Below the pieces are notes generated by a model. It was not told the DNA's origin. It was given only the letters and a program-made list of their open reading frames with translations, and ran no database searches. Made by a program: the position numbers and the translations under genes. Shown here one piece after another: positions 24,135-42,468 of a stretch of DNA of 42,468 nt. The stretch is taken from positions 1 through 42,468 of the forward strand of contig CALEDI010000050.1 of NCBI GenBank assembly GCA_937949535.1. The letters run 5' to 3'. The DNA is from an uncultured Lewinella sp. Lineage in GTDB: Bacteria; Bacteroidota; Bacteroidia; Chitinophagales; Saprospiraceae. Each line of letters begins with the position of its first letter. Positions within the stretch are counted from its first letter, which is position 1.

Positions 24135-24324
24135 CTGGGTTGAGTGCCTCCGGCGTGAGCTGTATGACTGGGTTGAGCGTCTCCAGCGCGAGCTCCCTGA
24201 CTGGGTTGAGCGTCTCCGGCGCGAGCTCCCTCTTTCAAAAAAATCGCACCGGAGGCGCTCAACCCAATAAGGCTCCGGCGCGAGCTCTCCTATTCAAAAA
24301 ATCGCGCCGGAGGCGCTCAACCCA
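24135..24324. repeat. 33-bp direct repeats and long inverted repeats between hutU and hutI
   Basis: Three units of 33 bp start at 24135, 24168 and 24201 (each beginning CTGGGTTGAG). The third unit (24203-24224) pairs over 22 bp with 24244-24265 with only one mismatch and one G-U. A second, shorter palindrome follows (GGCTCCGGCGCGA at 24271-24283 with 24302-24314), and the sequence at 24302-24323 repeats the right arm of the first hairpin. It lies inside the operon, starting directly after the hutU stop codon and ending 5 bp before hutI, so transcript folding here could set the hutU:hutI ratio. Confidence 0.85.
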
Positions 24325-24329
24325 CTAGC

Positions 24330-26843: not shown

Positions 26844-29800
26844 TTAGTCCTTCATGAAACGAATAGACTGCATCCCTTGCTGCGAAGCAAGCTGCACGAA
26901 GTACATACCGGAAGGCAACTGGCTAATGTCGATCTGTACCGTAGTGGAGTGCTCTCCACCAACAAGGGCTTGGACACCGTAGGCGGTACCGTTCATATCA
27001 CGGACGAAGAGTTGGCCATTGGGGAGGGCCTCAAAGCTTTCCAAATCGAGGTAGAGCAAGCTTCCGCTGGCGGGGTTGGGGCGGGCGGTCATCAGGAGTG
27101 CACCGATTGGCCCGCTGCCTTGCTCGGGGCTGTTGCCATCGGTAAACCCAACTTCATCGGTACGGACTACGGTGACGAAGTTGTCGCTCAGGTCAAAGCA
27201 CGCATCGGCCAACTGCGCCGTAGCGGCGTCGTCTCCCATACCCGCAACGATGTTGCCGGAATAAGACAGCCCCCATACGCGGCAAGTCCCAACGCCCGCA
27301 GGGCCAAAGTCTATACTAGGGCCAACGGAAGTAGCCAGCAACAGGTTGTCTTCGTCGGTGATGAGGTACATGAAGTTGTCGCCTTGTTCGCCTTCCGTAT
27401 CAAAAGCTACAATTGCGGTTGCGTTATTCCCACTCCCAACGATTTCAATTTCTACTTCGGTTTCCCCTTCAGTAGTTGTTACCATCCCGCCGTCAGGGTC
27501 TTGGTAGATGATGGTGATGAAGTTGCTCGTGAGGGCTCCACAGCCAGAGGCCAAGGTGGCGGAATTGATGTTCTGGTTGATGCCCAAAAGGCTCGTTCCG
27601 GTGAAGTTGAACCCATAGATGCGGTAAGTACCCGGGCCGAAGGCTTGGAAAGGAATAATGTTGCTCGGTAGGTTGTTGGCTCGGACGCGGCCATCTTCGT
27701 CGGTAATAACGTAGCGGTAGTTCGGGCCGCTTACGCTGGGTTCAATTACCGCGATCGGGTTGTCTCCTTCTGCGATGCAGAAGGTGATGGTGTCTCCGGT
27801 TCCTTCGGTAGTGATGTTGGTTAGGGTGCCAGCGTTGATTTCGCCGCTTTGGGTTACGTCAAGGAAAGCCGGCGTAAGTTCATAACAGTTGTTGGCGAGG
27901 GCAACAACCGTTATACCATCACCGACCATCGCCGTCACGTTGCCGGTGTACGCCAAGCCATATACGCGGTAAGGGCCTTGGGGCAACGAACCAAGGTCTA
28001 CACTGTTGGGGTCTTCAGCGATTAGTTGTATGACGCCGAAGGTGTCGGTTACCAACACGGCGTATCCGGTGAGGTTGTCGCTGGTAGTAGCTACACTGAC
28101 GGTTCCGTCTCCATCAACGGTACAAGTGATGCCTGAACCGGGGAGGCCATCGATGCTAATTTCGGCGGCATCTGGTGTGTCATTAAGCACTCGGATGCAG
28201 TTGCGAGACAGGCTGACACAACCAGTAGCCAGCGAACTGAACTGAAGGCTAGAGCCAGGGGCAGCAAGGAAATCGCCGGTATAGCTAATGGCCCACACTT
28301 TCAATTCTTGTAGAGGTAGCGCGCCAAAGTCGAAGGAGTCTTGCCCTTCAGGCACGACGGATATGATCACGTCTGTAGCCGTTGCTATGACGTAGCGGTA
28401 GAGCGTATCGGCCGTTCCGCTGTTGGTCGTGAAGCGCACCAGCCCGTCGTTCGGATTGTCTGGGCAGAGGTAAACTTCTTCGGCTCCGTTACCGAGGATG
28501 TCTCCGCCGTTTACCTGTTCTACGTCTACGGTAACGAAGTTGTCGCTGAGGTCAAAGCAACTGGTGGCGAGGTCGGTAGTGAAGATGTTTTGGCCGGGGA
28601 TAAGGCTGAGGTTACCAGCGTAGGCCAAGCCGTAAACAGCATAGGTATCTTCTTGGGCCATGTTGAAGTTGAAGGTATCCATAATGCCCAGCAGCGCGAA
28701 GCTGTCTGCCTGTACGATGATGTAGATGTAGTCTCCGGCAGAAGGGCCAGAGATGAACTCTAGCGCGGGCTCGCTTGCTACGCCAGAACAGACACCAACG
28801 GAAGTACTACCATCGGCGAGAGAAACCGAGCCAGATACGGGAACTGCACGGTTGATGGTGATGAAGTTGTCGGCGAGGGCAGAGCACCCGCTAGCCAAAT
28901 CAGCGTTGGCGATGTCGTCTCCAACTGCCACCGTTACGCCTCCCGCGAAGGCGAAGCCCCATACCCGACAGATGCCAACGCCTGCAGGCTCAAAATCGTA
29001 GGTGTTGCCATCTACCAGTTCGAGTACGATGTTGTTGGTGTCGGTTATGACGTACTGGAAGTTGTTGCCGGTTGCGCCGATGCTGTTGAAGTTAATAATG
29101 TCGGCATTGCCATCATCTGGGCAAGTAGTTATGGCATCAAGGCCACCGTTCAGGCTAAGGGTTCCGCCGATGATGTCTTCTCGGGTCACGGTGACGAAGT
29201 TTTCGGACAAATCCGAACATGCTGAAGAGAGCTCCCCTGCACCTGCGTCCGCGCCCGCTTCAGCTAGCAATTCACCTTGGTAAGAGAGCCCCCAAATACG
29301 GCACACACCGAAAGGAGCAGGGTCAAAATCGAAGGTATTGCCATCTAGTACTTCAATAATGATGTTGTTCTCATCCGTGATGAGGTAAACAAAACCATCT
29401 CCTGCGGAGCCTGTGCTAACTACCTCTACGAGGTCTGGATTGCCATCTTGCGAACAAACGGAAATCTCCGTTTCCCCATTTGTTAGGGAGACCGTACCGC
29501 CTTGGGGCAGTTGCTTGGTCACCGTTACGAAGTTCGGGGAAAGCGCACTACACTGGCTAGCCAGTTGGTCCATTCCTGCTACATCTCCGCGCTCAGCAAT
29601 GATGATGCCATTGTAACCAAGGCCATAAACACGGCAAACGCCCTCGGGGAGCTGCTCAAAGTCGATACGATCCGTGAAGGCCACAAAGAAAACCACGTTG
29701 TTGGTGTCTGTGACTACGTAGTTGAAGTTCTCGAGAGTTGTACCCGTAGAGTCGAACAGGAACGGGTCGGGCTGGGCGTCTCCGGGGCAAGCCAGTATTT

Positions 29801-32255
29801 CTGTTGCTCCGTCTTCGGTGCTGATGGTACCGGTAGAAGCGTTTAGGCGGTTAACGGATATGAAGTTTTCTGAAAGCGCAAAACAACCAGTTGCCAATGC
29901 GGAGCCGTTGATGTTTTCGCCCATCACTAAGGTGAGTTCGCCAGAATAGATAATGCTGTAAACCCGGCAAAGCCCTGGTTCAACATCCTCAAAATCAAAG
30001 GCAGCACCTGCGGTAGTGCCGATGATGTTTCCATCTACGTCGGTTATCAGCCATGCGCCACTTTCTCCGGCGGCACCCTCGCTTACAAAAGACAGGATAT
30101 CTGCGATGCCGTCTCCGGGGCAAATTGTAGTTGAAGTAGCTCCGGTAGAAAGCCTTACGGTTCCTGCTGTAGGCCTGTCCCGAACAACGGTCACGAAGTT
30201 GTCGCTAAGGCTCGAACATTCAGTAGCTAGAGACGCCGAGAGGTTGTCTCCTTGCGTAACGGTAAGCTCACCTGCGTAGCTTAAGCCCCAAACCCTACAA
30301 ATACCAACGCCCGCATCATCGAAGTCAACCGTGTCGCCTTCAGGCACGCCAATAATGTTGTTGTCTGTATCGGTGATGAGGAACGTAAAATTGGCCCCTT
30401 CCGCACCCGTTGCAACAAAGGAGAAGAAGTCCGGCAAACCATCGCCAGGACAAACGGATACCTCGGTCTCGCCTTCGGAAGTCGCTACTGTTCCGCCTTG
30501 TGGTACGGAGCGGATAACGGTAACAAAATCGGTACTCAGTTCATGGCAACCGTCAGCAAGTTGTGCCGTAGTGATGTTGGTTCCGGGGCTAATGGTCAGT
30601 CCTCCTTGGTAGGTCAAAGACCAGACACGACAAACGCCGATACCGGCATCTTCTAAGTCAAAACTTGGGGTGGAGCTGAAGTTCAGTATTTCATTAAGGT
30701 CATTGGTAATCAGGTAAACCAAATTTCCGCCGGAGGAGCCAGTGTTGGTGACCATGATTACGTCTGCGTTTCCGTCTCCGGGGCAGGTCTCGACTTGGCT
30801 ATCGCCGCTGGTAGTAAGTATAGTGCCGCCAAGAGGAACTTCACGAATTACTTCAACAAATGTATTTGAAGCATCAAAGCAAGCATCAGACAATTGGGCG
30901 GTAGCGATCTGGTCACCAACCTGAGCGGTGAAGGAGCCGGTGTAGGTTACGTTGTATACGCGGCAGATGCCGGAGCCCGCGTCGTCGAAATCGACGATAG
31001 TGCCGGTTGGTAAGCCGATGATCTCGCCGTTGTCGTCGGTGATGACCAAACGGAGGGAGCCTTCGGAAGTACTGCTACTGATGAATTCAATCTCATCGGA
31101 GTTGCCATCGTTGGGGCAAAGGCGGACGGTGTTTCCTTGGTCGGTCGTGATCGTGCCGCCGTCGACGGCTTCTCGGATTACGGTAACGAAGTTGCTTGAA
31201 GCATCAAAGCAAGCATCAGACAATTGGGCGGTAGCGATCTGGTCACCAACCTGAGCGGTGAAAGAGCCGGTGTAGGTTACGTTGTATGCGCGGCAGATGC
31301 CGGAGCCCGAGTCGTCGAAGTCGACGGTAGTGCCGGTTGGTAAGCCGATGATCTCGCCGTTGTCGTCGGTGATGACCAAACGGAGGGAGCCCAGATTAGA
31401 GTTGCTGCTACTGATGAATTCAATCTCGTCGGAGTTGCCGTCGTTGGGGCAAAGGCGGACGGTGTTTCCTTGGTTGGTCGTGATCGTTCCGCCGTCAACG
31501 TCCTCCCGAACTACGGTGATGAAGTTGTCCGACAGCCCCGTTCCACAACCAGTAAAATCGGCTAACGCGCTGATGTTGTCTCCGATACCGATTGGTAACG
31601 CGCCGGGGTTTGCGAACGCATAAACGTAGGAGGTACCGATGCCCGTGCCGCCGAAATCAATCACGCCGTCTTCATCAAAGCGCTCTACATCTCCATTTGG
31701 GGTAGTGATTAGGTACGTGACGTTGCTCGCGGCGGAACTCACGGTTACTTGGTTGCTGTCGTTGTCGTCTTCGCAAAAGACGTACCTGTCTTGGTTGGAA
31801 GCGATGAGTAGGCCTCCGGAGTTTGCGTTGTTTACGGAAACAAAGTTGGCGGTGAGGCCGAAACAAGGAGTGGAAAGGGTAGCGGTGCTGAAAACGTCAC
31901 CAATGTTGGCGGTAAGGTTTCCGTAGTTGGAAAACGCATAAACGCGCAGTGCGCCGGTTGGTAGCAAATCAAAATTGATCCGGTTGCTGAAGCCGATCCA
32001 GCGGATGATGTCTTCGGCGTCAACAACAACGTAGGCGTAAGCCTGATTGAAGGGAACTACTTGGAAACGAACACGGTGCAGTATGTCGTCATCGGTGCAG
32101 GTAGAAATTTCTGTAGCTCCCGAGAAGGCAATGGAGACAATTGCGTCTTCTTGGCAAGGCCGATTATCCCCGGAAGGCATCTGAGCAAAAAGAGAATTTG
32201 AGAGCAAAAAGCAGGAAAACGTAAGAAGCAAAACAGCGTGTAAGTTCTTAATCAT
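26844..32255 (-). CDS. Giant repetitive secreted protein with T9SS type A sorting domain
   Basis: A 1803-aa exported protein. The signal peptide (about 1-25) ends SLFAQ. It is followed by about 15 tandem units of roughly 110 residues. A unit reads GGT-(short strand)-two Cys-containing strands (typically VCPGDG), FxYxITDxxNxI, a VDFDDAGxGICRVWGLSY block, GDxxxxAQLAxxC and DNFVTVxR. Each has several conserved cysteines. The C-terminal about 85 residues (TARPNPASGSLLYLDLE... SGMYFVQLASQQGMQSIRFMKD) form the type A sorting domain. Units 3 and 4 are nearly identical in DNA, a recent duplication. This is an adhesin-like or surface-fibre layout; no catalytic motif is seen. It contains copy F of the dispersed motif. 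Confidence 0.9.
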   Translation of the reverse strand: MIKNLHAVLLLTFSCFLLSNSLFAQMPSGDNRPCQEDAIVSIAFSGATEISTCTDDDILHRVRFQVVPFNQAYAYVVVDAEDIIRWIGFSNRINFDLLPTGALRVYAFSNYGNLTANIGDVFSTATLSTPCFGLTANFVSVNNANSGGLLIASNQDRYVFCEDDNDSNQVTVSSAASNVTYLITTPNGDVERFDEDGVIDFGGTGIGTSYVYAFANPGALPIGIGDNISALADFTGCGTGLSDNFITVVREDVDGGTITTNQGNTVRLCPNDGNSDEIEFISSSNSNLGSLRLVITDDNGEIIGLPTGTTVDFDDSGSGICRAYNVTYTGSFTAQVGDQIATAQLSDACFDASSNFVTVIREAVDGGTITTDQGNTVRLCPNDGNSDEIEFISSSTSEGSLRLVITDDNGEIIGLPTGTIVDFDDAGSGICRVYNVTYTGSFTAQVGDQIATAQLSDACFDASNTFVEVIREVPLGGTILTTSGDSQVETCPGDGNADVIMVTNTGSSGGNLVYLITNDLNEILNFSSTPSFDLEDAGIGVCRVWSLTYQGGLTISPGTNITTAQLADGCHELSTDFVTVIRSVPQGGTVATSEGETEVSVCPGDGLPDFFSFVATGAEGANFTFLITDTDNNIIGVPEGDTVDFDDAGVGICRVWGLSYAGELTVTQGDNLSASLATECSSLSDNFVTVVRDRPTAGTVRLSTGATSTTICPGDGIADILSFVSEGAAGESGAWLITDVDGNIIGTTAGAAFDFEDVEPGLCRVYSIIYSGELTLVMGENINGSALATGCFALSENFISVNRLNASTGTISTEDGATEILACPGDAQPDPFLFDSTGTTLENFNYVVTDTNNVVFFVAFTDRIDFEQLPEGVCRVYGLGYNGIIIAERGDVAGMDQLASQCSALSPNFVTVTKQLPQGGTVSLTNGETEISVCSQDGNPDLVEVVSTGSAGDGFVYLITDENNIIIEVLDGNTFDFDPAPFGVCRIWGLSYQGELLAEAGADAGAGELSSACSDLSENFVTVTREDIIGGTLSLNGGLDAITTCPDDGNADIINFNSIGATGNNFQYVITDTNNIVLELVDGNTYDFEPAGVGICRVWGFAFAGGVTVAVGDDIANADLASGCSALADNFITINRAVPVSGSVSLADGSTSVGVCSGVASEPALEFISGPSAGDYIYIIVQADSFALLGIMDTFNFNMAQEDTYAVYGLAYAGNLSLIPGQNIFTTDLATSCFDLSDNFVTVDVEQVNGGDILGNGAEEVYLCPDNPNDGLVRFTTNSGTADTLYRYVIATATDVIISVVPEGQDSFDFGALPLQELKVWAISYTGDFLAAPGSSLQFSSLATGCVSLSRNCIRVLNDTPDAAEISIDGLPGSGITCTVDGDGTVSVATTSDNLTGYAVLVTDTFGVIQLIAEDPNSVDLGSLPQGPYRVYGLAYTGNVTAMVGDGITVVALANNCYELTPAFLDVTQSGEINAGTLTNITTEGTGDTITFCIAEGDNPIAVIEPSVSGPNYRYVITDEDGRVRANNLPSNIIPFQAFGPGTYRIYGFNFTGTSLLGINQNINSATLASGCGALTSNFITIIYQDPDGGMVTTTEGETEVEIEIVGSGNNATAIVAFDTEGEQGDNFMYLITDEDNLLLATSVGPSIDFGPAGVGTCRVWGLSYSGNIVAGMGDDAATAQLADACFDLSDNFVTVVRTDEVGFTDGNSPEQGSGPIGALLMTARPNPASGSLLYLDLESFEALPNGQLFVRDMNGTAYGVQALVGGEHSTTVQIDISQLPSGMYFVQLASQQGMQSIRFMKD
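29238..29256 (+). repeat. Dispersed 19-bp motif, copy F
   Basis: An exact consensus match with K=T, inside the giant repeat protein on the opposite strand, read as A-G-A-D-A-G-A. The sister units read sequences such as GDDAATAQLAD there, so the motif replaced unit sequence without disturbing the frame. Confidence 0.85.
30868..31500 (-). repeat. Recent 330-bp tandem duplication inside the giant gene
   Basis: The segment beginning near 30868 is repeated 330 bp further on (for example GCATCAAAGC at 30871 and 31201), with long identical stretches and few substitutions. It corresponds to one 110-aa repeat unit. The other units are much more diverged at DNA level. Confidence 0.85.
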
Positions 32256-32582: not shown

Positions 32583-35237
32583 TTGCTTATCCCTCGCTAC
32601 TTAGTAATCTTACTGCTGTTGCTGCCTGTACTTCTATTGAGTCAGGAGCTTACCATTGACGCCGACTACGACGCTGAGCGCCTCGTAAAAGAAGTTTTTG
32701 CGTCTGGGCAGTGCGAAACCATATTCAACATCCAACAGATTGGGAGTAACCCAGACGGAATTGGCTTCTTCTCTGGCTCAGACAGCATCACTGGTTTTGA
32801 CCGAGGCATCATACTGTCTACGGGAAGAGTTGTAGACGCCGCAGGCCCCAATTCAGACACCGACATAGGAACCGAACTGGAGGGCCAAACCAATGACCCC
32901 GACCTGAGTTTGGCAGGCTCCGGAGACATTTTTGACCGCTCCGGGCTGGAGTTTGACTTTATACCCTTGCAGCCGACGGTTACTTTTCGCTACGTCTTTG
33001 CCTCCGAGGAATACTGTGAATTTGTAGACGCCTCCTTCAACGATCTATTTGGTTTCTTCATTAGTGGCCCAGGCTTAAACGGCCCCTTTAGCGACGGGGC
33101 GGTCAATGTTGCTACCGTCCCCGGTACCAACCAGCCCGTGAGCATCAATAATGTCAACTTTGCCACCAACCCTTCTTTTTACCTCGACAACGAATTCCCC
33201 AGCGTTCGGGACATCGCCAACTGCGGGGGAAGCAATAGCAACGGCCCGCGCTTTGACCTGATCGAGTACGACGGGCAAACGGTCGTACTTACCGCTACCA
33301 TTGATTTACAAACTTGCCAAACTTACCACATCCGGCTACTGGTAGGCGACGTTTCGGACGGAGACCTAGACTCGGCCGTATTTCTTGAAGCAGGCAGCTT
33401 TGACTTGGGCGGCAGCGTAAGCCTAACCGGTGAAGGCGGAGACTCTACCCTGACAACCGTTTTTGAGGGTTGCGAAGCCACCAACCTCCGGATAGAACGC
33501 GGGGCAGAGAGCAACCCCGAACGAGACCAAACCATTGCTTACCGCATCGGCTCCAATTCCGTTGCGCAGGAGGGGGTAGACTTCACGGCTGGCACCGGCG
33601 AGGTCACTATTCTGGCAGGAGAGATGTTTGCCGAAATACCCATCACGGCGCTTCCCGATGCTACCGTTGAAGGGCCGGAGAGCGTTTGGCTTTACCTAGA
33701 CATACCCTGCGCCTGCTATACGGACTCCATCGAGCTCCTCATCAACGAGCCGGCAGTACTGACGGTAGGCTTAGACGAGGCTTTTTACTGCCCCGGAGAA
33801 ACCGCAACCCTGCGCCCTGAAGCCTCGGGAGGCGTACCTCCGTTACAGTACCAATGGAGCTTTGGAAGTACGGACTCCGTTCCGACCCTGACGCCTCCTC
33901 TACCGACTTCAATCAGCCTTAGGGTTACCGACAATTGCGGTCAGGTAGTCAACAGGTCTATATCTACCTTTAGCAGTACCCCGCCGTCTTTCAGTCTTCC
34001 GGCGCAAGACCTCAAGGCCTGCCGCAACGAGTCCCAGTTTATCGCGATGGACCTAATGGGCGCAACGCCCATTACGGTAGTTTATCAGCTCAACGGTGGG
34101 CCGTTCGAAGAATGGGTGTTCCCGTCGGAAGGCAGGCAGCTCCAACCCATCAATCGAGGTGGTAATTACCGCATTGTTGCCATCGAAGATCGGGCTTGCC
34201 GCATATCCGTTGACACCACCATCCGGGCTGATTTTTTTGAACCCGTCATCAATCCTCGCCTTCAAAACCCGAGTTGCGGAGGGCTTTCTGATGGGTCTAT
34301 CTCGGTTACCCACCTCCAGACGGTTGGGCCTTACACATACGATTGGACGGGGGTGGACCCCACAGCGCTTACGGTTAGGAGGCTCCCTGCGGGGGAGTAT
34401 TCTTTGACCGTTACGGATGCCCTTGGCTGCGTTAGCGAGCGCAACCTAAACCTCCGCGACCCTTCGCCCATCACCCCGATTGAGATCAATTGCACTACGG
34501 TGCGTAGGCCCCCGCTTGTTCTTTCCGCAGGCGGAGGTGTGCCGCCTTATACCTACAGCGTTGACGGGGTAAACTACTTTGACCGTAACGGTTTTGACCG
34601 ACTCAACGAAGGGGAATACTACACGTTGCGCATCAGAGACGACGCTGGGTGTGAGACGGAACAGCGCAACTTCTTTTACCCAACAGCAACGCGCCGCCCG
34701 GTGAGGTTGCCCAACTTTGTGCCACAGGAAATAGCCGGCAGCGCAGTGGTAGAGGCAGAGTACTTTGTGCCGTTAGACCAAATTGCTTCTTACCGCTGGC
34801 ACCCCGCAGAATTATTTGACTGTGCTACTTGCCCCAGCCCTACAGTAAGCGCCCCTTCTAGCCAGCCGATCAGTCTTGTTGTTGACAACATTTATGGCTG
34901 TACGGATAGCCTGGTAACGTTTGTCGCTGTAGATGGGCGCATCCCTGTATACGTCCCGAACATATTTACCCCAAACGGCGATGGTACCAACGACTACGTG
35001 GCCATCTACGCTAGCCCCGACCAAGTAGAGCGGGTGGTCTCCTTCCAAGTCCACTCTCGGTGGGGCGAACTGTTGTGGGAAGGTTATGACTTTGCGCCCA
35101 ACGACAGCCGCCGGGGATGGGACGGGATGCTGAACGGCAAACTGGCCGGCGTAGCAGCCTACGTCTGGGTTGCAGAAGTCCGGCTTACTACGGGGGTTTT
35201 GCAGCGTGAGGCAGGTACGGTGGTATTGATGCGATGA
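32583..35237 (+). CDS. Choice-of-anchor L protein with T9SS type B (gliding-associated) sorting domain
   Basis: An 884-aa exported protein. The signal peptide (MLIPRYLVILLLLLPVLLLSQ) starts from a TTG; no in-frame ATG is available upstream. Residues about 30-260 match the choice-of-anchor L domain (ERLVKEVFASGQCETIFNIQQIG, GFDRGIILSTGRV, FRYVFASEEYCEFV, FGFFISGPG). A Calx-beta-like segment and PKD/SprB-like repeats with VTDxxGC follow. The final about 90 residues (VPNIFTPNGDGTNDYVAIY, RWGELLWEGYDF, GWDGMLNGKLAGVAAYVWVAEV) are the gliding-motility-associated, type B sorting domain. It is predicted to be surface-exposed via T9SS; a role in adhesion is inference. The next gene starts 57 bp downstream. 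Confidence 0.92.
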   Translation: MLIPRYLVILLLLLPVLLLSQELTIDADYDAERLVKEVFASGQCETIFNIQQIGSNPDGIGFFSGSDSITGFDRGIILSTGRVVDAAGPNSDTDIGTELEGQTNDPDLSLAGSGDIFDRSGLEFDFIPLQPTVTFRYVFASEEYCEFVDASFNDLFGFFISGPGLNGPFSDGAVNVATVPGTNQPVSINNVNFATNPSFYLDNEFPSVRDIANCGGSNSNGPRFDLIEYDGQTVVLTATIDLQTCQTYHIRLLVGDVSDGDLDSAVFLEAGSFDLGGSVSLTGEGGDSTLTTVFEGCEATNLRIERGAESNPERDQTIAYRIGSNSVAQEGVDFTAGTGEVTILAGEMFAEIPITALPDATVEGPESVWLYLDIPCACYTDSIELLINEPAVLTVGLDEAFYCPGETATLRPEASGGVPPLQYQWSFGSTDSVPTLTPPLPTSISLRVTDNCGQVVNRSISTFSSTPPSFSLPAQDLKACRNESQFIAMDLMGATPITVVYQLNGGPFEEWVFPSEGRQLQPINRGGNYRIVAIEDRACRISVDTTIRADFFEPVINPRLQNPSCGGLSDGSISVTHLQTVGPYTYDWTGVDPTALTVRRLPAGEYSLTVTDALGCVSERNLNLRDPSPITPIEINCTTVRRPPLVLSAGGGVPPYTYSVDGVNYFDRNGFDRLNEGEYYTLRIRDDAGCETEQRNFFYPTATRRPVRLPNFVPQEIAGSAVVEAEYFVPLDQIASYRWHPAELFDCATCPSPTVSAPSSQPISLVVDNIYGCTDSLVTFVAVDGRIPVYVPNIFTPNGDGTNDYVAIYASPDQVERVVSFQVHSRWGELLWEGYDFAPNDSRRGWDGMLNGKLAGVAAYVWVAEVRLTTGVLQREAGTVVLMR

Positions 35238-35282
35238 GGGAAGGGCTTTGGGGTGTACTCCCCCCAATTCAGCCCGATCCCG

Positions 35283-35290
35283 TACCTTCG
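35283..35290 (+). promoter_or_regulatory. -7 element, leaderless start of the sigma-like/TPR gene
   Basis: TACCTTCG ends 4 nt before the ATG at 35295, the same geometry as at truA and the epimerase-like gene. This is the main reason for preferring 35295 over an in-frame ATG at 35253. Confidence 0.55.
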
Positions 35291-35294
35291 CCGT

Positions 35295-36632
35295 ATGTCT
35301 AACCAAGGCCAACATCTGGCGGCACTGACCCGCAACTTCCACGCCCTCCGTGGGCCGTTCTTGAAATGGGCTACCAAGTTCAACCAAGCGGACAAAGTTA
35401 CCTTGGGCCACTTCCGGCGTGCGCTCATTGGTTGGTATGAGGCACGGATTGATCTGGAGGAGCCGTTTACGGGGGAAGTCCAGAACTATGTTCAGCGGGT
35501 AACGGAGGTATATTTCTCTGGCAAACTGAACGAAGCCGTGCTTGCGGCCGAACGGATACCGGTTGAGGAGCTAGGCATAACTCAAGAGCAGCATCCGCTC
35601 AACCACCTGCCCCGGCCCATCCAGCTCAACAACACGCAGCGGTTGATGCTTAACCAGTTCAAAGAACTTGGGAAAAACTGCCAAGACCTGCTCTTGATGT
35701 TTGATTACCACCAGCTGAGCGAAGAACGAATTGCGGAAGTGATTGGCCTAGAAGGCCAAATAGAAGAAACCGAAAACCGGCGGCAGAAGTGTATGCTGAT
35801 GGTGCGTGAAGCTTGGCAAGCCGGCGGCATCACGGACCCCGTTCACATTCCGTCTCCTATAGACGAAGAGCTGATAGACCGCTACTACGCCGAAGAACTC
35901 AGCGTAACAGAACGCTGGAACGTTGAAGCCCGCCGACCGTCGGACACGGTATTTCGTAGAGCAATGGAACTGCGCGAAGACTGGGCGGAAGTCATTGCCG
36001 TTGCAGGCCGGCAAGACCTGATGGAAACCTTGGTTAGGGAAGAAAAGAAGTATGCCCGAAAACGATCTGTTGCACCTGCGTCCGCGCCCAAAGTAAAGCT
36101 GTCTCCCCGCAAAAAAGGCGGCATCAAGTTCGGAAAGCTGGAACTGCCCAACCTGCAAACCCTCCTAGCCGTTGGCCTATTCGCGGTTTTTGGCTGGGTA
36201 CTTTGGACGACCTTCGGGCCCACCTCCCCACAAAACAAATCCGTTGCGCACTTTGAGCCGCTGCCCAACTTCTTTGACCGCATGGCCCCCCGCGATGCTT
36301 ACGAAGAAGACCTGAAACGCATCCTATACTACTACGATAAGGGCCAGTACCGCTACGCCTACGACGAGTTGTTGCCCGTAGCCCAAGCTTACCCTGCCGC
36401 GCCGCTTTACCTCGGTGTTTGTGCGCTCGCTTTGAAGCAACCCACCCGCGCACTGGAGTGGTTGGAGCAAATTCCGCGCGGCAGTTTCTACCGGCCTTAT
36501 GCCGAATGGTACGAAGCGTTGGCCTATTTGGCGGAAGGGAACTCGGTTGCCGCAGATACGGTTTTGGAAGAAATCCGAGATACCCCCGGCCACCCCTACC
36601 GAGGGCGAGCGGGGGAGCTTATTGGTCAGTAG
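35295..36632 (+). CDS. Membrane protein: degenerate sigma-like and anti-sigma-like cytoplasmic part, TM helix, periplasmic TPR
   Basis: A 445-aa protein of unusual build. Residues about 1-80 resemble a worn sigma region 2 (HFRRALIGWYEARI... VQNYVQRVTEVYF). Residues 113-175 resemble sigma region 4 (LMLNQFKELGKNCQDLLLMF, then LSEERIAEVIGL and a basic helix). Residues 190-235 (ELIDRYYAEELSVTERWNVEARR) match the 'Y..eLs..Er..fe.R' segment of Bacteroidota membrane anti-sigma/TPR proteins. A basic stretch leads to one transmembrane helix (about 288-307). The remaining about 120 residues are TPR-like helices outside. Normally a sigma factor and such an anti-sigma/TPR protein are two genes. The domain reading is by eye and needs a profile search. 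Dispersed motif copy H encodes APASAP just before the membrane helix. Confidence 0.75.
   Translation: MSNQGQHLAALTRNFHALRGPFLKWATKFNQADKVTLGHFRRALIGWYEARIDLEEPFTGEVQNYVQRVTEVYFSGKLNEAVLAAERIPVEELGITQEQHPLNHLPRPIQLNNTQRLMLNQFKELGKNCQDLLLMFDYHQLSEERIAEVIGLEGQIEETENRRQKCMLMVREAWQAGGITDPVHIPSPIDEELIDRYYAEELSVTERWNVEARRPSDTVFRRAMELREDWAEVIAVAGRQDLMETLVREEKKYARKRSVAPASAPKVKLSPRKKGGIKFGKLELPNLQTLLAVGLFAVFGWVLWTTFGPTSPQNKSVAHFEPLPNFFDRMAPRDAYEEDLKRILYYYDKGQYRYAYDELLPVAQAYPAAPLYLGVCALALKQPTRALEWLEQIPRGSFYRPYAEWYEALAYLAEGNSVAADTVLEEIRDTPGHPYRGRAGELIGQ
36071..36089 (+). repeat. Dispersed 19-bp motif, copy H
   Basis: An exact consensus match with K=T, followed by AAAG. It is inside the sigma-like/TPR gene, read as A-P-A-S-A-P in the basic linker before the membrane helix. 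Confidence 0.85.
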
Positions 36633-36636
36633 TATC

Positions 36637-36701
36637 CAGCAATCAGCGTTCAGGCTACCGAATGCAACAGCGGAAGCCTGAATCCTGAACGCTGATTGCT
36701 G
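36637..36701. repeat. Perfect 18-bp inverted repeat
   Basis: CAGCAATCAGCGTTCAGG (36637-36654) is exactly inverted at 36684-36701, with 29 nt between. The similarity continues inward if a 7-nt insertion in the right arm is allowed. It starts 5 bp after the stop codon of the sigma-like/TPR gene. A strong mRNA 3' stem is expected; there is no T-run, so it may be a dispersed palindrome and not a classic terminator. Confidence 0.8.
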
Positions 36702-36792
36702 AAATTCTAGCCTCTTAGTGATTTGGTTGATCTATTGAAAAACCTGCAATTGGTTGTGGGTACGCCACAAAACACGATCTTTTTTATCGCTG

Positions 36793-36800
36793 TACCTTTG
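36793..36800 (+). promoter_or_regulatory. -7 element of the pterin dehydratase gene
   Basis: TACCTTTG, an exact match, 19 nt before the ATG at 36820. A T-rich stretch upstream occupies the -33 region without a clear TTTG. Confidence 0.55.
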
Positions 36801-36819
36801 CGCCCTTAATTCCTGAAAG

Positions 36820-37065
36820 ATGCCCTTCTACGAAAAAGATAAAGCCCTCCGAGCCGAGTTTAAATTTAAAGACTTCCGCGAAGCCTTCGCTTTCATGACC
36901 GAAGTGGCCTTTGCCGCCGAAGCGGCCAACCATCATCCTGAATGGAGCAATGTCTACAATACGGTCTCCGTTAAACTAACAACCCACGACGCGGGTAACA
37001 CGGTAACACAGAAAGACCACGACCTCGCCTCCGCCATTTCCAAGATTTACGGTAAGTATGCTTAG
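36820..37065 (+). CDS. 4a-hydroxytetrahydrobiopterin dehydratase (PCD/DCoH family)
   Basis: Dehydrates 4a-hydroxy-tetrahydrobiopterin, recycling the pterin used by aromatic amino acid hydroxylases. It is 81 aa, slightly shorter than usual (about 95-105) at the N-terminus. The active-site pattern is intact: [36 protein letters not shown], with the paired histidines, the aromatic spacing and the final Asp. No phenylalanine hydroxylase is nearby. Its 3' end overlaps the next gene by 8 bp, so the two are translationally coupled. Confidence 0.92.
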
Positions 37066-38557
37066 AGTTTTATTTTTCATGTTGGTGCTTGCTTTTTCTG
37101 CTAGCCCCGCTACGGTTTCAGCTCGGACGAACGAGATGGTTTTGCCTTCCGACCGGCACTACACCATGAGCCCCCAAGCCAAAGCAATCTATGAACGCAT
37201 TATGGCCGTTGAGCTAGACGGTGCGCAGACAGATCTGGACCAGTTCCGGAAGCGCTACCCCACCAACCTTGCGGCAGAGCACCTTGAAAGTTACCTAGAC
37301 TTTTTCCGGCTCTACCTCAACGGCGACGAACGAATTGACGAGCGCCTCTCGGCCCGGTTTGACCGCAGAATAGACGCGCTAGAAGACGGCGAAACCAACT
37401 CCCCCTACTACCGCTATGTGCTGGCCGAAATTCGCCTGCACCGGAGCCTTATTCATTTGCGCTTCGAGCGCCACCTTTCTGCTTTTCGGGAGCTGAACAA
37501 AGCGCACAAATTACTGCGCGACAACGCGAAGATTTTCCCTGACTTTTTGCCAACCTACAAAGACCTTGGGTTGCTGCACGCGGCAGTTGGCAGCATCCCG
37601 CCGCAGTACAAATGGGGGGTAGAGCTGTTTAGCTCCTTGAACGGGACCATAGCTGAAGGCCGTGAGGAAATACGGCTCGCACTGTCTGATGAAAGCAGTC
37701 CTTTCCTGCTGGAGACCCAAGTGCTTTCTGCCTTTTTGGAGCTCCACTTGGCTGGCGAGCCGGAGGCCGCCTTCCGACAAATCAATAAGCTTGGCCTAAG
37801 CCCAAAGACCAACCCAGTACACTGTTTCGTAATGGCTAACCTAGCGATGCGCAGCGGCCGCAACGGCCTAGCACTACAAACACTAGAAGACCAGCCCCGA
37901 GGCGGAGAAGCAGCAGACTTCCCCTACCTAGATTTCATGCTCGGCCTAGCGAAGCTGCGGTCATTGGACCCTACTGCGCGTTTGTACTTTCAGTCGTTCA
38001 ATGTGCGTTATGCCGGTCGGCACTTTAAAGAGGAGGCGCAGCAGAAGATTGCTTGGGCTTACTTGCTCGGCGGAGACACAGATGGTTACCACAAAGCCAT
38101 GTCTCGGATCGGCGGCGGAAGCAAGGCAGGCGGCGACCAGAACGCAGCCATGGAGGCGGCGCGGCAGCGGCCGCCGCAAGCAGACCTCCTCAAAGCCCGG
38201 CTCCTCTTCGACGGCAATTATTGCACCCGCGCCCGCGCCCAACTACAACAGATCGACGTAGCAGCCCTCACCGAAAACGAACAACTCGAATACTACTACC
38301 GCACCGGGCGCGTACTAGATGGGCTCAACGACTACGACGCAGCCATCTCTTTCTACCTGCAAACCGTCAGAACCGGCCGCAACAACCCCGCCTTCTACGC
38401 CTGCAAATCTGCTCTCCAAGCTGGGCTGATTGAAGAAAAACGTGGCAATAAAGCTCTTGCGCGGAAGTACTTCTCTGAATGCCTAAGCATCTCGCCAGCA
38501 GAGTATAAAACGGGCCTTCACATTTTGGCAAAATCTGGTCTAGATCGGGTACAGTAA
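37058..38557 (+). CDS. Exported TPR-repeat protein, unknown
   Basis: A 499-aa protein with a short signal peptide (about 1-22, [14 protein letters not shown]). The rest is helical with repeated TPR-like pairs ([45 protein letters not shown]). A non-TPR segment [30 protein letters not shown] (about 168-197) is probably family-specific. It overlaps the pterin dehydratase gene by 8 bp. A degenerate copy of the dispersed motif and two further GCGGCCGC octamers (37854-37861, 38167-38174) lie inside. A scaffold or complex-assembly role is the usual guess for TPR proteins; nothing here fixes the partner. Confidence 0.8.
38222..38240 (+). repeat. Dispersed 19-bp motif, copy I (variant)
   Basis: TGCACCCGCGCCCGCGCCC, two substitutions from consensus, inside the TPR gene and read as C-T-R-A-R-A. 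It may be a decayed or forming copy. Confidence 0.55.
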
Positions 38558-38623
38558 AGGTATTGTGACATGTTCCGTGAATGTCATGACGCAGAAATCC
38601 GAGTGGAAAACGAAAAAATACCT

Positions 38624-38631
38624 TACCTTTT
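38624..38631 (+). promoter_or_regulatory. Candidate -7 element of the outer-membrane protein gene
   Basis: TACCTTTT, a one-base variant of TAnnTTTG, 34 nt before the ATG at 38666. Confidence 0.4.
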
Positions 38632-38665
38632 CAGGGCTTTTTCTTTTCACTAGTATTACACCAAC

Positions 38666-39796
38666 ATGCGTTATTTTTTGCTCACCTTACTTCTCTTTTG
38701 CCTTTCTGCACCTACACTGGAAGCGCAAAAGAAAGGTTCAGACTTGGTCGTTTTTCAAGACGGCAGCACGAAAAAAGGTACCGTCCGAAAAAACGGCGTA
38801 TCCGGTTACAGTCGGTCGATCCAGTTCTTGGAACGCGGAGCAGACGAGGCCAAGCAACTGAGCCCCGCTAGTGTTTTCGGGTTCACCATCAGCAGCAACA
38901 AGCGTACTTACCGCTCCGTAACGGCTGAGATCCCGGACCCTAAGCAAGGGGGGCGCAAGGTGCTTCAGCAACGCTTCGGGGAGGTACTCATTGATGGTGA
39001 GATGCAGCTCATTCGCGTCAACCTAGACGGCAACGAATTTGAATCTAAAGCCCTCGGTACGGAAGACTATTTCTACCTGCTGCGGCAAGATGACGTAGAG
39101 TTGGTGTTGGAGCTGACCACCATCGTCGTTTACGAACGGCTACACGCCAACCCCAGCCGTTTCCGGAATAAACTCAAGTTCTTTACTCGGGGCTGTGAAG
39201 ACGTAGTTGAGCAAGCTCGGCGGGCAGATTTCAACGATGCCTCCATTATGCGCATCTTGCGCAACTACGGTGAATGCAAAGATTTCCAAGAAATGGAAAT
39301 GAACGCGGGCCGGATCCCGAGCCGGATCCGTTATCGTCACTCCATCGTTGCGTCTAACCTGAATATGCGGGACATGAACTACGACGAAAACCAGTTCACC
39401 TTCGGGCTAAACTATGAGGTAGAAGCCGCAGCGACCCAACGGCTGAAGTGGTTCGGGATGATATTTTCCGTTGGCTACCTGTACAATACCTTCCGGTGGG
39501 AAGAGCAGTTCAACGTAGCGCAATCTATGCTGAGGGGCAATGTTGCCTTCGCCTTTGCGCCTATTCATAAGGAAGACTTTAGCGTACAGCTTACTGGAGG
39601 GATGAGTAACTACAATGCCTTTGATTCGAGCTTCAACAGTTTCTTCTCCAACAATTATTTTTTGCTCAGTTCGGGGCTGCGGGTACGCCACAAGAACATT
39701 TCCGCACACCTGAACTACGAGCACATGCCTAACCAAGTGAAGGAGCAACCGGGCAACATCCTGGTGCTAGGCGTTGGGTATAAGTTGCCGTTTTAA
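38666..39796 (+). CDS. Exported beta-rich protein, probably outer membrane, unknown
   Basis: A 376-aa protein with a signal peptide (about 1-20) ending TLEAQ. The N-terminal about 130 residues (DLVVFQDGSTKKGTVRKNG...) look like a small beta domain. A helical middle follows (KLKFFTRGCEDVVEQARRADFNDASIMRILRNYGEC, with a Cys pair). The C-terminal half alternates aromatic strands (FGMIFSVGYLYNTFRW, VQLTGGMSNYNAF) and ends in an aromatic residue (VGYKLPF), the outer-membrane beta-barrel pattern. No family name can be given. It starts from its own promoter in a 108-bp gap. Confidence 0.8.
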   Translation: MRYFLLTLLLFCLSAPTLEAQKKGSDLVVFQDGSTKKGTVRKNGVSGYSRSIQFLERGADEAKQLSPASVFGFTISSNKRTYRSVTAEIPDPKQGGRKVLQQRFGEVLIDGEMQLIRVNLDGNEFESKALGTEDYFYLLRQDDVELVLELTTIVVYERLHANPSRFRNKLKFFTRGCEDVVEQARRADFNDASIMRILRNYGECKDFQEMEMNAGRIPSRIRYRHSIVASNLNMRDMNYDENQFTFGLNYEVEAAATQRLKWFGMIFSVGYLYNTFRWEEQFNVAQSMLRGNVAFAFAPIHKEDFSVQLTGGMSNYNAFDSSFNSFFSNNYFLLSSGLRVRHKNISAHLNYEHMPNQVKEQPGNILVLGVGYKLPF

Positions 39797-39810
39797 GGCG
39801 TTCGGGAACC

Positions 39811-39833
39811 GGATTGCTATCGCGTACGCATAA
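39811..39833. repeat. Possible fragment of the triloop repeat (antisense)
   Basis: GGATTGCTATCGCGTACGC resembles the reverse complement of the GCGATAGC part of the hairpin 2 unit. It is short and uncertain, in the 79-bp gap before the MBL gene. Confidence 0.3.
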
Positions 39834-39846
39834 CCAATCTAATGCT

Positions 39847-39854
39847 TACCTTGC
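39847..39854 (+). promoter_or_regulatory. Candidate -7 element of the MBL hydrolase gene
   Basis: TACCTTGC, a close variant of TAnnTTTG, 21 nt before the ATG at 39876. Confidence 0.4.
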
Positions 39855-39875
39855 CGCAAAGCTCAACCCCACCCC

Positions 39876-41273
39876 ATGAAAATTCAATTCTGTGGCGCAG
39901 CCCGCGAAGTTACTGGCTCGGCGCACCTGATTACCTTAGACGATGGCTACACCATCTTACTAGACTGCGGCCTCTACCAAGGGCGCAATAAAGAGATGAA
40001 GGACTTCAACGAAAACTTCGCCTTTAAGCCGGAGAGCGTTGATTGCCTCATCCTCAGCCACGCCCACATAGACCATACAGGGCGGGTGCCGAAGCTGGTG
40101 AAAGACGGTTTCCGGGGGCAGATATTCGCTACCCACGCTACCCGTAGCCTTTGTGCTATTTTGCTACTCGACTCGGCGTTCATTCAAGAGAAAGACGCGG
40201 AATACTACAATAAGAAACACGGCAAATTCGGGAAATCGAAGAAGCCGCTCTACGTCCGGGCAGATGTAAAACCGGCCATGGAGCGCTTCGTTGGTTTGCC
40301 TTACAACCGCTGGGAGCACATCACGGACAAGGTAGAACTGCAGTACCGCGACGCGGGCCACATCCTCGGCAGCGCCAGCGTGACGCTGCGCATCAAACGA
40401 GCCGACGGCACGACGACGAAGCTTGGCTTTACGGGAGACATTGGGCGGCCAGACCGCCCCATCCTCCGAGATCCGCAGCCGATGCCGAAGTGTGACTACA
40501 TCCTCTGCGAATCTACCTACGGCGACCGCGAGCACGAGCTGAAGCCCAACGAAATAGAAAAGTTTCTGAACATCGTGAAGGATACCTGCGTGGAGAAACG
40601 CGGCAAACTGCTCATCCCCGCCTTCAGTGTGGGGCGGACGCAGGAGATCGTCCATATGCTAGACCAGTTGGAGTCTGCGGGCAAGCTGCCCAAGATCAAG
40701 GTATTCGTGGATAGCCCCTTAGCCGTCAATGCCACCACGGTCTTCGGCGCGCACCCCGAGTGTTACGACGCCGACCTGCAGGAATATATGCTGACCGACG
40801 ACAACCCCTTCGGCTTCAACGACCTCACCTACATTCAGGACGTCCGCGAATCCAAAGCGCTCAACTTCTTGCCCGGCCCCGCCATCATCATCTCGGCTTC
40901 GGGCATGATGAACGCCGGCCGCAGCAAGCACCACCTGCGCAACACGATGGGCAACCCGAACAACACGATCTTCATCGTTGGTTACTGCGCCCCGCAAACG
41001 CCGGGCGGTAAACTGCGCGATGGGGCCGAAGGCCTCAAGCTCTACGGTGAGTACCACGAGTTGCGCGCCGATGTAGTGGTCATGGACAGCTTCTCGGCCC
41101 ACGCAGACCGCTCGGAAATGGTCGACTTCCTGGAGAACCAGAAGAAGAGCTGTAAGAAGGTCTTCCTCGTTCACGGAACGATAGACCGCATGGAATCCTT
41201 CGGTGAGACGCTGCTGGAGAACGGGTTTAAGGGGTGGAAGGCGCCTAAATTGGGAGAGGTTGTGGAGCTTTGA
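39876..41273 (+). CDS. MBL-fold/beta-CASP metallohydrolase with RMMBL domain (RNase-type)
   Basis: A 465-aa protein. The metallo-beta-lactamase motif is SHAHIDHTG (H62, H64, D66, H67), and GHILGSASV gives a further metal His. A beta-CASP segment follows with CESTYGDREH and PAFSVGRTQEI. The C-terminal RMMBL part includes ASGMMNAGRSKHHL, DSFSAHADRSEM and VHGTIDRMESFGETL. This layout is shared with archaeal/eukaryotic CPSF73-like nucleases and many bacterial YSH1-like hydrolases, so RNA cleavage is the usual inference. It is cytoplasmic. The function in Bacteroidota is not settled. Confidence 0.92.
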   Translation: MKIQFCGAAREVTGSAHLITLDDGYTILLDCGLYQGRNKEMKDFNENFAFKPESVDCLILSHAHIDHTGRVPKLVKDGFRGQIFATHATRSLCAILLLDSAFIQEKDAEYYNKKHGKFGKSKKPLYVRADVKPAMERFVGLPYNRWEHITDKVELQYRDAGHILGSASVTLRIKRADGTTTKLGFTGDIGRPDRPILRDPQPMPKCDYILCESTYGDREHELKPNEIEKFLNIVKDTCVEKRGKLLIPAFSVGRTQEIVHMLDQLESAGKLPKIKVFVDSPLAVNATTVFGAHPECYDADLQEYMLTDDNPFGFNDLTYIQDVRESKALNFLPGPAIIISASGMMNAGRSKHHLRNTMGNPNNTIFIVGYCAPQTPGGKLRDGAEGLKLYGEYHELRADVVVMDSFSAHADRSEMVDFLENQKKSCKKVFLVHGTIDRMESFGETLLENGFKGWKAPKLGEVVEL

Positions 41274-41281
41274 TTTTCGTG

Positions 41282-41324
41282 TTCCGGCTGGAAGCCGGAA
41301 GCTGGAATACGAAGCCCTGCGGGC
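41282..41324. repeat. Two hairpins after the MBL gene
   Basis: TTCCGGCT-GGA-AGCCGGAA (41282-41300, 8-bp perfect stem) and GCCC-TGC-GGGC (41314-41324). The latter has the same TRC triloop as the 71-bp repeat family. They begin 9 bp after the MBL stop codon and could end its transcript. Confidence 0.5.
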
Positions 41325-41379
41325 TAGTACGTCCGTAGGATTTCGTGGGCTAGGTTGCGGCGGCAACCGTTGTGTTGGG

Positions 41380-42351
41380 GTGGGGCTGCTGCTCCTAACC
41401 CTCCTCTGCACCTGCGGCCGCGCCCCAAAACCGTCGCCGCCCAAAACCACCTTCTACCACTGGCAAACGCGCCTCGCGCCCGACAGCACGGCCCGAAACT
41501 TACTGGCAGAATACAACTGCGACCGCCTCTACACGAAAGCCTTCGACGTAAGCTGGACGGCGGGCCAAGCCGAGCCAGCGGCCTTGGTCCAACTGGCCGA
41601 TACCGTGGGCTTGCCCCAGTTGGTGCCCGTGGTTTTCATCACCAACGAGGTCTTCGTGCGCCAGCCCACGCACAAACTGGAGGCATTGGCCGAAGACGTT
41701 TTGGGCCTGACGGAGCAGCTTTTCGGGCCCAACTTTCCCGAACTGCAAATAGATTGTGATTGGACGGCGCGGACGCAGGTGCAATATTTCGTTTTCTTAA
41801 AAGCATTGCAGCTCCGCCTAAAGAATCGCTCCCTGACCTGCACCCTCCGCCTGCACCAATACCGCGACCGCAAAACCCAAGGCGTCCCGCCCGTAAGCCG
41901 CGCCACCCTGATGGCCTACAACGTCGGCAACCTCAACGCCTGGGAAACCGAAAACTCCATCGTGGATACCAACATCCTGAAAACCTATCTCTCCGGCACC
42001 AAGCCCTACCCGATTGATCTCGACCTAGCCGTCGCGGCCTACGACTGGGCCGCCGTCTACCGCCGCAACGACCTCGCCTACCTCATCAATGAGCCAGACA
42101 CGACCGAACTGCGCGATACGTCTCGCTTCATCGCTCTACCCACCCAAGGCCAAAGCCCGCGCTGGCAAGTAAAAAAATCTACCTACCTAGACGGTATTTA
42201 CCTCTACGCAAATGACTTGCTTCGCTGGGAGTCTGCCCCGCCAGCCGCGATTGACGCTCAGGTCGAATTGTTGGAGCGCTACGTGTCGGGGTTTGAGGGG
42301 CAACGGGTGATGGTTTATCGGTTGGGGGGGCGGTTATGGGCTGGCCGGTAA
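41380..42351 (+). CDS. Putative lipoprotein, unknown (TIM-barrel-like)
   Basis: About 323 aa if it starts at GTG 41380; the frame stays open upstream into the MBL gene, but the hydrophobic stretch LLLLTLLC fits a lipobox with its Cys supplied by dispersed motif copy J. The start is uncertain because the signal would be very short and lacks an early basic residue unless it begins nearer 41360. The body has LQIDCDWTARTQVQYFVFLKAL and LMAYNVGNLN, a pattern of acidic strand ends as in glycoside-hydrolase-like TIM barrels. No family can be named with confidence. Motif copies J and K both lie in this gene, in opposite orientation. Confidence 0.65.
   Translation: MGLLLLTLLCTCGRAPKPSPPKTTFYHWQTRLAPDSTARNLLAEYNCDRLYTKAFDVSWTAGQAEPAALVQLADTVGLPQLVPVVFITNEVFVRQPTHKLEALAEDVLGLTEQLFGPNFPELQIDCDWTARTQVQYFVFLKALQLRLKNRSLTCTLRLHQYRDRKTQGVPPVSRATLMAYNVGNLNAWETENSIVDTNILKTYLSGTKPYPIDLDLAVAAYDWAAVYRRNDLAYLINEPDTTELRDTSRFIALPTQGQSPRWQVKKSTYLDGIYLYANDLLRWESAPPAAIDAQVELLERYVSGFEGQRVMVYRLGGRLWAGR
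41407..41425 (+). repeat. Dispersed 19-bp motif, copy J
   Basis: An exact consensus match with K=G, followed by CAAAA. It is read as C-T-C-G-R-A, and its first codon is the presumed lipid-attachment Cys of the lipoprotein. Confidence 0.85.
41766..41783 (-). repeat. Dispersed 19-bp motif, copy K
   Basis: GGCGCGGACGCAGGTGCA, reverse orientation with K=T and lacking one terminal base, within the lipoprotein gene and read as A-R-T-Q-V-Q. Confidence 0.8.
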
Positions 42352-42394
42352 TGCGTTTATTAGTGGCCAAAACGTATCATTTTTCATCAACTTG

Positions 42395-42461
42395 AGCCAC
42401 TTATAGCCTATTCCTCTAGTTTGGGCCTATGATTGTGCCTGTTTTGCGGCTATAAGTGGCT
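42395..42461. repeat. Perfect 14-bp inverted repeat at the window end
   Basis: AGCCACTTATAGCC (42395-42408) is exactly inverted at 42448-42461, with 39 nt between. It lies downstream of the lipoprotein gene; the window stops 7 bp later, so its relation to the next gene is unknown. Confidence 0.7.
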
Positions 42462-42468
42462 AACATTT

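Follow-up and report, generated by a model that had tools for sequence, protein, structure and literature searches.

A membrane protein of one Saprospiraceae genus joins a sigma-derived domain, an anti-sigma segment and a TPR domain in a single chain

We analysed a stretch of 42,468 nucleotides from an uncultured Lewinella sp. (assembly GCA_937949535.1, contig CALEDI010000050.1), which is called the window throughout. A single open reading frame on its forward strand encodes a protein of 445 aa, built from the N- to the C-terminus of a former ECF sigma factor, an anti-sigma segment, a transmembrane (TM) helix and a TPR domain (Table 1). Sigma part, anti-sigma part and membrane helix thus lie within one open frame. 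An initial annotation had read the sequence as just such a composite polypeptide, and the reading frame, profile-profile alignment, hydropathy and TPR fold bear it out; the TM helix, then placed at around residues 288-307, is shifted only slightly by hydropathy, to about 290-308. A longer frame with a GTG start at 35253 is open as well, but the orthologues share the Met of the ATG at 35295, which argues against the upstream start. The one-chain architecture and the homology of its parts are real. The membrane topology and a sensor role of the TPR domain we infer from this arrangement.

Table 1 Features of the fused gene and its upstream neighbourhood (window coordinates).
Feature	Position	Strand	Remarks
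Choice-of-anchor L / T9SS type B protein gene	32583..35237	+	neighbour outside the unit
TACCTTCG, promoter-like -7 element	35283..35290	+	12 nt before the ATG
Complete CDS, 445 aa: pseudo-sigma, anti-sigma, TM and TPR parts in a single chain	35295..36632	+	ATG at 35295, stop codon ends at 36632
Sigma region 2-like, residues 1-75	35295..35519	+	profile-based; AF2 model gives no confirmation
Arg41-Arg42 codons	35415..35420	+	mostly Q-D/E in split sigmas; Arg42 in 20/20 fused
Sigma region 4-like, residues 111-178	35625..35828	+	profile, AF2 model, fold match
Anti-sigma-like segment, residues 186-250	35850..36044	+	
AGRQDLMETL, residues 237-246	36003..36032	+	anti-sigma helix 4 equivalent, also kept in clade B
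TM helix, about residues 289-309	36159..36221	+	hydropathy only
TPR domain, residues 335-444	36297..36626	+	presumed periplasmic

An uninterrupted one-chain orthologue is present in 20 of the 21 genomes of the genus, the one lacking it being 55% complete, which excludes chance or an assembly error. Six of these orthologues come from named records (L032-L037: four Neolewinella, one Lewinella MAG and one Bacteroidia MAG), so the genus is very probably Neolewinella. We found no one-chain form outside it, neither among 398 genomes of the family, where the 20 hits all belonged to the genus, nor among 295 genomes of the class; as these searches scored 8-11 candidates per genome, and the family profile matches are known to miss at least one split sigma gene (G038, L164), rare cases could be overlooked. 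Five of the seven stop-free frames above 300 aa listed outside the genus (there are at least seven) were fetched, and all five are split pairs. Two long frames within the genus, of 523 and 502 aa, were likewise rejected as fusions, each being a split sigma gene with a run-in and a separate anti-sigma frame.

In a tree of the receptor half, the 20 fused sequences form one clade with support 100/100 on a long stem; judged by this tree, the fusion is of single origin. It occurs in two forms, clade A in 11 genomes and clade B in nine. Clade B is supported, while the clade A rows do not form one clade in the receptor tree (L046 falls outside the rest).

Upstream, a gap of 57 bp (35238-35294), as originally noted, separates the fused gene from a gene whose product matches NCBIfam choice_anch_L (E 9.4e-67) and a type B sorting domain (35.2 bits against a cut-off of 35). 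The link to T9SS and the cell surface that had been proposed on this basis does not hold across the genus: a choice-of-anchor-L gene lies upstream in only 3 of the 20 loci, those of the window and its two nearest relatives, and we reject a conserved T9SS linkage. The consensus of the -7 promoter element is TAnnTTTG. Of the 20 orthologues, 6 (the window's included) have the form TAnnTT[TC]G no more than 40 nt from the ATG, versus 1.1% of the window's 40-nt stretches, which suggests that in the window the fused gene is transcribed independently of the upstream T9SS gene.

Downstream, hisS (named by Pfam on one member) follows the fused gene in 15 of the 20 loci of the genus; the L033 locus ends before the hisS position. 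A genus-type hisS is absent from the downstream part of the window (36633-42468), and the only histidyl-tRNA synthetase match in the window's genome (88% complete) is divergent, with 34% identity (G000:C147:7897-9333). Six of seven other genus genomes checked carry the genus-type gene at 79-100%, the seventh having a fragment at 80%. A hisS replacement in the window's genome is possible.

Taken singly, the protein is hard to recognize as a sigma factor. Its best sigma match over the whole length is NCBIfam sigma C (E 0.057); the N-terminal half alone gives Pfam Sigma70_r4_2 at E 0.12 and an NCBIfam match at E 0.027, all three sub-threshold. Curated ECF family cut-offs are failed by a wide margin (14 of the 20 fused N-halves scanned), and a direct sequence search of the PDB returned 0 matches. 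Profile comparison recovers the relationship. Aligned by hhalign with canonical split ECF sigmas (34 of 41, the seven weakest omitted), the fused N-half gives Prob 98.8 and E 7.9e-17 over 163 columns, versus Prob 0.2 in two mismatched controls; the homology spans regions 2 and 4, with fold evidence for region 4. A profile built from 14 of the 20 fused N-halves, searched against the 398 family genomes, returned the 20 genus matches at 168-261 bits; next came two normal sigma ORFs, each beside an anti-sigma of its own, at 62.9 and 62.8 bits. It picks up ordinary sigma ORFs of about 190 aa in other genera with E down to 1.2e-16. As judged from these profiles, the N-terminal half is sigma-derived. 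The 'worn' ECF sigma factor with regions 2 and 4 seen by the initial annotation is upheld by this alignment, which finds the sigma-70 similarity in the N-terminal half, and by the residue losses described below.

Structure prediction agrees for region 4. In an AF2 model of residues 1-251, residues 109-181 resemble region 4 of SigL (3hug; Z 9.8, rmsd 2.7 over 71 residues). Ranks 1-35 of the comparison are all sigma factors or transcription-complex chains, and the first non-sigma row, at rank 36, is a putative DNA-binding protein with Z 6.6, other non-sigma rows having Z 3.8-5.0; for helical folds, Z below about 13 may mean just a common arrangement. Residues 1-180 come out of the structure check divided, with the region 4 fold found and region 2 poorly modelled: 10-residue confidence means are 37-49 up to residue 110, structure matches spanning residues 1-180 have rmsd of at least 11.9 and were not used for region 2, and that region is assigned purely from profiles. 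With Foldseek alone, neither the full-length nor the 1-251 model had a match at E ≤ 0.001. The full-length model yielded relatives for the TPR domain only, the 1-251 model being needed for region 4. Residues 336-445 match 2xev with Z 14.7 and rmsd 1.8 over 110 residues, a TPR fold to which the Pfam TPR match is weak and sub-threshold.

The relatives of the fused gene are pairs of genes. A family search matched 85 of 150 genomes, many through one in-frame stop, and the split loci consist of an ORF of about 190 aa for an ECF sigma factor and an adjoining one of about 250 aa that encodes anti-sigma segment, TM helix and TPR domain. The fused chain is collinear with these pairs, of which many family genomes have one or more. 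That such genes normally stand as two neighbours in Bacteroidota, as the initial annotation had it, agrees with the presence of an adjacent partner in 41 of 41 non-redundant split sigma ORFs, a count that is no unbiased rate since most loci were located via the partner. The split sigmas are canonical: three tested pass NCBIfam sigma70-ECF with 62.5-68.5 bits against 42.9, and a profile of 13 of them matches solved ECF sigmas (SigW, E 3.2e-12).

In 18 of the 41 split pairs both genes share a reading frame, several with a single intervening stop, so that loss of one stop would suffice for fusion; the count is biased by the route of locus discovery and is used for plausibility only. We looked for a syntenic split ancestor upstream of hisS and found no sigma or anti-sigma match in 39 stretches from other genera, one only 242 bases long and all drawn from the 138 genomes there that matched hisS, or in G006.

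We then compared the RNA polymerase and DNA contact residues of fused and split proteins, counting positions 38, 41 and 42 over the 39 split sigmas with residues there and numbering RpoE by alignment. A review (PMC8103513) describes contact of an acidic DAED motif with the beta' clamp and regards this motif as indispensable for holoenzyme formation. Split sigmas have D/E at position 38 (RpoE 48) in 38 of 39 cases, fused proteins in 0 of 20; at position 42 (RpoE 52), D/E is again found in 38 of 39 split sigmas, where all 20 fused proteins have R. At position 41 (RpoE 51), 26 of 39 split sigmas have Q, versus 2 of 20 fused proteins, 16 of which have R. The acidic beta'-clamp docking motif of region 2.2 is thus missing from the fused proteins, acidic at 38 and 42 in 0/20.

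Basic residues that contact the promoter in regions 2.4 and 4.2 are mostly lost too: K/R stands at position 160 in 39 of 41 split sigmas versus 0 of 19 fused proteins, and at position 71 in 39 of 41 versus 4 of 20. Residues 153-175 carry a median net charge of +5 in split sigmas, but of -1 in clade A and -6 in clade B. Most of clade A retains two basic residues of region 4, R at 163 in 9 of 11 and at 171 in 10 of 11, and contact with DNA may therefore persist there. As the 20 fused sequences share their origin, each of these changes counts in essence as a single event, retained afterwards. Taken together, these losses imply that the fused protein would no longer bind polymerase and is probably no working tethered sigma factor.

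The anti-sigma segment fared differently in the two clades. In the 11 genomes of clade A it is entire, and the 11 sequences match split anti-sigmas with hhalign Prob 97.8 and E 1.1e-12. In clade B (L047-L054 and L004) an internal deletion of roughly 40-50 aa has removed anti-sigma helices 1-3 and spared the last helix, AGRxDLxxTL; this GR-D-L---L helix 4 motif is kept despite the deletion just before it. The two split sigmas with the best scores have anti-sigma partners with similar motifs, NGRQDLKKKL and NGREALKNKL. One of three split partners tried has a Pfam zf-HC2 match at 13.9 bits, below the cut-off of 22.2; the remaining Pfam matches of the three are of TPR type or weak and unrelated, and the one partner run against NCBIfam received no name there. 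The segment is a putative class I anti-sigma, by a match to split anti-sigmas and not to a class I model.

Beside these proteins, one split anti-sigma/TPR gene (L165 at G055:C2, a minus-strand open frame of 374 aa) carries two tandem anti-sigma segments before its TM helix, the anti-sigma profile matching twice within the one frame.

In four sigma/anti-sigma co-crystals, anti-sigma helix 4 contacts RpoE positions 22, 23, 26, 27, 47, 51, 54 and 58; sigma region 4 is contacted by helices 1 and 3 (PMC7406223, Table 2). Judged from MAFFT alignments at about 20% identity, all 20 fused proteins have L, L and Y at positions 11, 44 and 48 (RpoE 22, 54 and 58), and 17 have an aromatic residue at position 15 (RpoE 26); the equivalents of the other helix 4 contacts RpoE 23, 27 and 31 are not conserved among the fused proteins. 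This pattern suggests that helix 4 may lock onto region 2 of the pseudo-sigma in cis. The positions equivalent to RpoE 22, 26, 54 and 58 are also hydrophobic in most split sigmas, and those retained may simply belong to the core of the domain. In clade B, the loss of the helices expected to hold region 4 coincides with the loss of the basic residues of region 4.

We now propose that the protein is a polymerase-incompetent pseudo-sigma factor held by its own anti-sigma helix beneath a TPR receptor, a reading that we consider reasonably likely. An ancestral operon of an ECF sigma factor and a membrane anti-sigma/TPR receptor would have become one gene in the ancestor of the genus. After the fusion, the sigma part would have shed its polymerase-docking acids and many of its promoter-contact basic residues. 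The hydrophobic face of region 2, which receives anti-sigma helix 4 in solved complexes, appears to have been kept, as was helix 4 itself; the cytoplasmic end is thus most likely a self-complementary module of pseudo-sigma and anti-sigma helix. Held in cis beneath the membrane helix and the periplasmic TPR domain, this module would be switched open or closed by occupancy of the TPR domain. Its output would be a protein-protein interaction at the membrane with no release of a sigma factor, the nearest candidate partners being the split sigma/anti-sigma pairs of the same genus.

Selection on the fused protein bears on whether its sigma part still has a function. Region 2 has a pN/pS of 0.19 among the four closest orthologues, region 4 one of 0.20, the anti-sigma segment 0.18 and the TPR domain 0.24; the sigma-like domain is, by these ratios, under purifying selection in close relatives and no debris. 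In three mid-distance clade A sequences the values are 0.41, 0.34, 0.29 and 0.27, respectively, and in clade B they are 0.49-0.66 over all segments; both sets favour the TPR part but, with synonymous sites near saturation, say little. The sigma part might nevertheless be a vestigial cytoplasmic anchor, the periplasmic TPR domain doing all the work. Such a reading would fit clade B, which has lost most of the anti-sigma segment along with the basic residues of region 4, and in which the TPR domain is most conserved (mean identity 0.64 versus 0.52 and 0.49 for the sigma regions); TPR pN/pS also lies below that of the sigma regions in mid-distance clade A and clade B. Against it stand the low ratios of regions 2 and 4 in the closest set and a group of residues, including R42, W47, G60, P101 and P106, that are invariant in the 20 fused proteins and uncommon in split sigmas. 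We regard it as unlikely.

The pseudo-sigma could also act in trans. PhyR, of the alphaproteobacterial general stress response, has a sigma fold with degenerated promoter and core regions and titrates an anti-sigma factor, as the review describes (PMC8103513). A membrane-anchored mimic of this kind, triggered by the TPR domain, would capture the anti-sigmas of split paralogues and free the true sigmas. Potential targets exist: a further sigma-profile match besides the fused gene is found in 18 of the 20 genomes of the genus that carry the fused gene, and the window's genome, outside those 18, has a split pair at G000:C203 (L002, L080). The degeneration on a sigma fold (here seen for region 4 only) is shared with PhyR. 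In place of the receiver domain of PhyR, of which Pfam and NCBIfam found no match at E up to 10, the fused protein has its anti-sigma segment in cis, followed by a membrane helix and a TPR domain, and its own helix 4 would compete with those of the paralogues. With titration in trans drawn by analogy with PhyR, we give this mimic only a modest chance. Equally tentative, and by the same analogy, is a sensor-controlled switch in which the protein's own helix 4 would be exchanged for or against those of the paralogous ECF pairs. If true, a periplasmic TPR sensor would tune several true sigmas by partner switching, and PhyR-like logic would have evolved independently in Bacteroidota through stop-codon loss in a sigma/anti-sigma operon.

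The initial annotation offered two readings, a tethered sigma factor released by proteolysis or a co-opted scaffold, of which co-option fits better; docking residues and many promoter contacts are lost throughout the genus, which disfavours the first. Precedents for it are known: in IutY of Pseudomonas putida (ECF243) and in the Actinobacterial ECF48, ECF52 and ECF53, a sigma factor is fused to a membrane anti-sigma extension (PMC8999054), and IutY is cleaved by Prc and RseP (PMC8999054, section 3.5.3). The fused protein resembles them in joining sigma and membrane anti-sigma in one chain, with the part order of IutY, and retains the region 4 fold. A putative Prc gene (cluster CL2) stands near one locus of clade A and 8 of the 9 in clade B. 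Unlike IutY, for which proteolytic release has been shown, and ECF48/52/53, for which it is expected, the fused protein lacks the docking acids in 20 of 20, with Arg at 42 and no basic residue at position 160 (0/19), and its outer domain is a TPR domain. Rescue by phosphorylation, as in EcfP (PMC8103513), is improbable, Thr being found in the motif, at position 36, in only 5 of 20. A working tethered sigma freed by regulated proteolysis is thus rather improbable.

Internal initiation yielding a separate anti-sigma/TPR protein, so that the pair works as two proteins, is very improbable: Met codons do occur near the end of region 4 (M167 and M169 in the window protein), and between region 4 and anti-sigma helix 1 in 5 of 11 clade A proteins, but none is shared by all (8 of the 11 clade A proteins have Met at 169), and the stretch between residues 170 and 223 of the window protein is free of Met.

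The closest known relatives of the presumed pseudo-sigma are the split pairs (e.g. L160, L161 and L072), homologous over the full length and with the same membrane and TPR head; they differ in being two genes and in having the canonical D...QD/E docking motif. ECF42 also combines sigma and TPR in one chain, an active sigma factor whose C-terminal TPR extension is needed for activity (PMC8999054), whereas in the fused protein the TPR domain lies past a membrane helix. One-chain sigma/anti-sigma proteins and sigma folds that are no sigma factors are thus already known; their combination here appears to be new, being absent from the literature searched, which covered few subscription papers. The same search found nothing on sigma/anti-sigma pairs of Saprospiraceae or Lewinella or on fused or degenerate sigma factors of Bacteroidota.

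A class I anti-sigma was found next to only 6% of the ECF sigma factors of Bacteroidetes (PMC7406223), so anti-sigma/TPR receptors and their one-chain derivative bear on how the phylum controls its ECF sigma factors. The fused gene would also illustrate a route by which a transcription switch ceases to be one, through fusion to its inhibitor and loss of polymerase contact with conservation of the remainder. With split paralogues in the same genomes, the change is testable residue by residue.

The window holds several further genes around the locus. At 36820-37065 (+), an ORF of 81 aa encodes a pterin-4a-carbinolamine dehydratase (Pfam, 93.7 bits); a TACCTTTG element lies 27 nt upstream of it. 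The gene at 26844-32255 (-) is divergent from the choice-of-anchor-L gene and encodes an 1803-aa protein whose sequence looks like a long series of similar repeats and ends in a T9SS type A sorting tail. It is preceded at 22134-26494 (+) by a histidine-degradation row of urocanase, an amidohydrolase that is presumably imidazolonepropionase, and an arginase-family enzyme.
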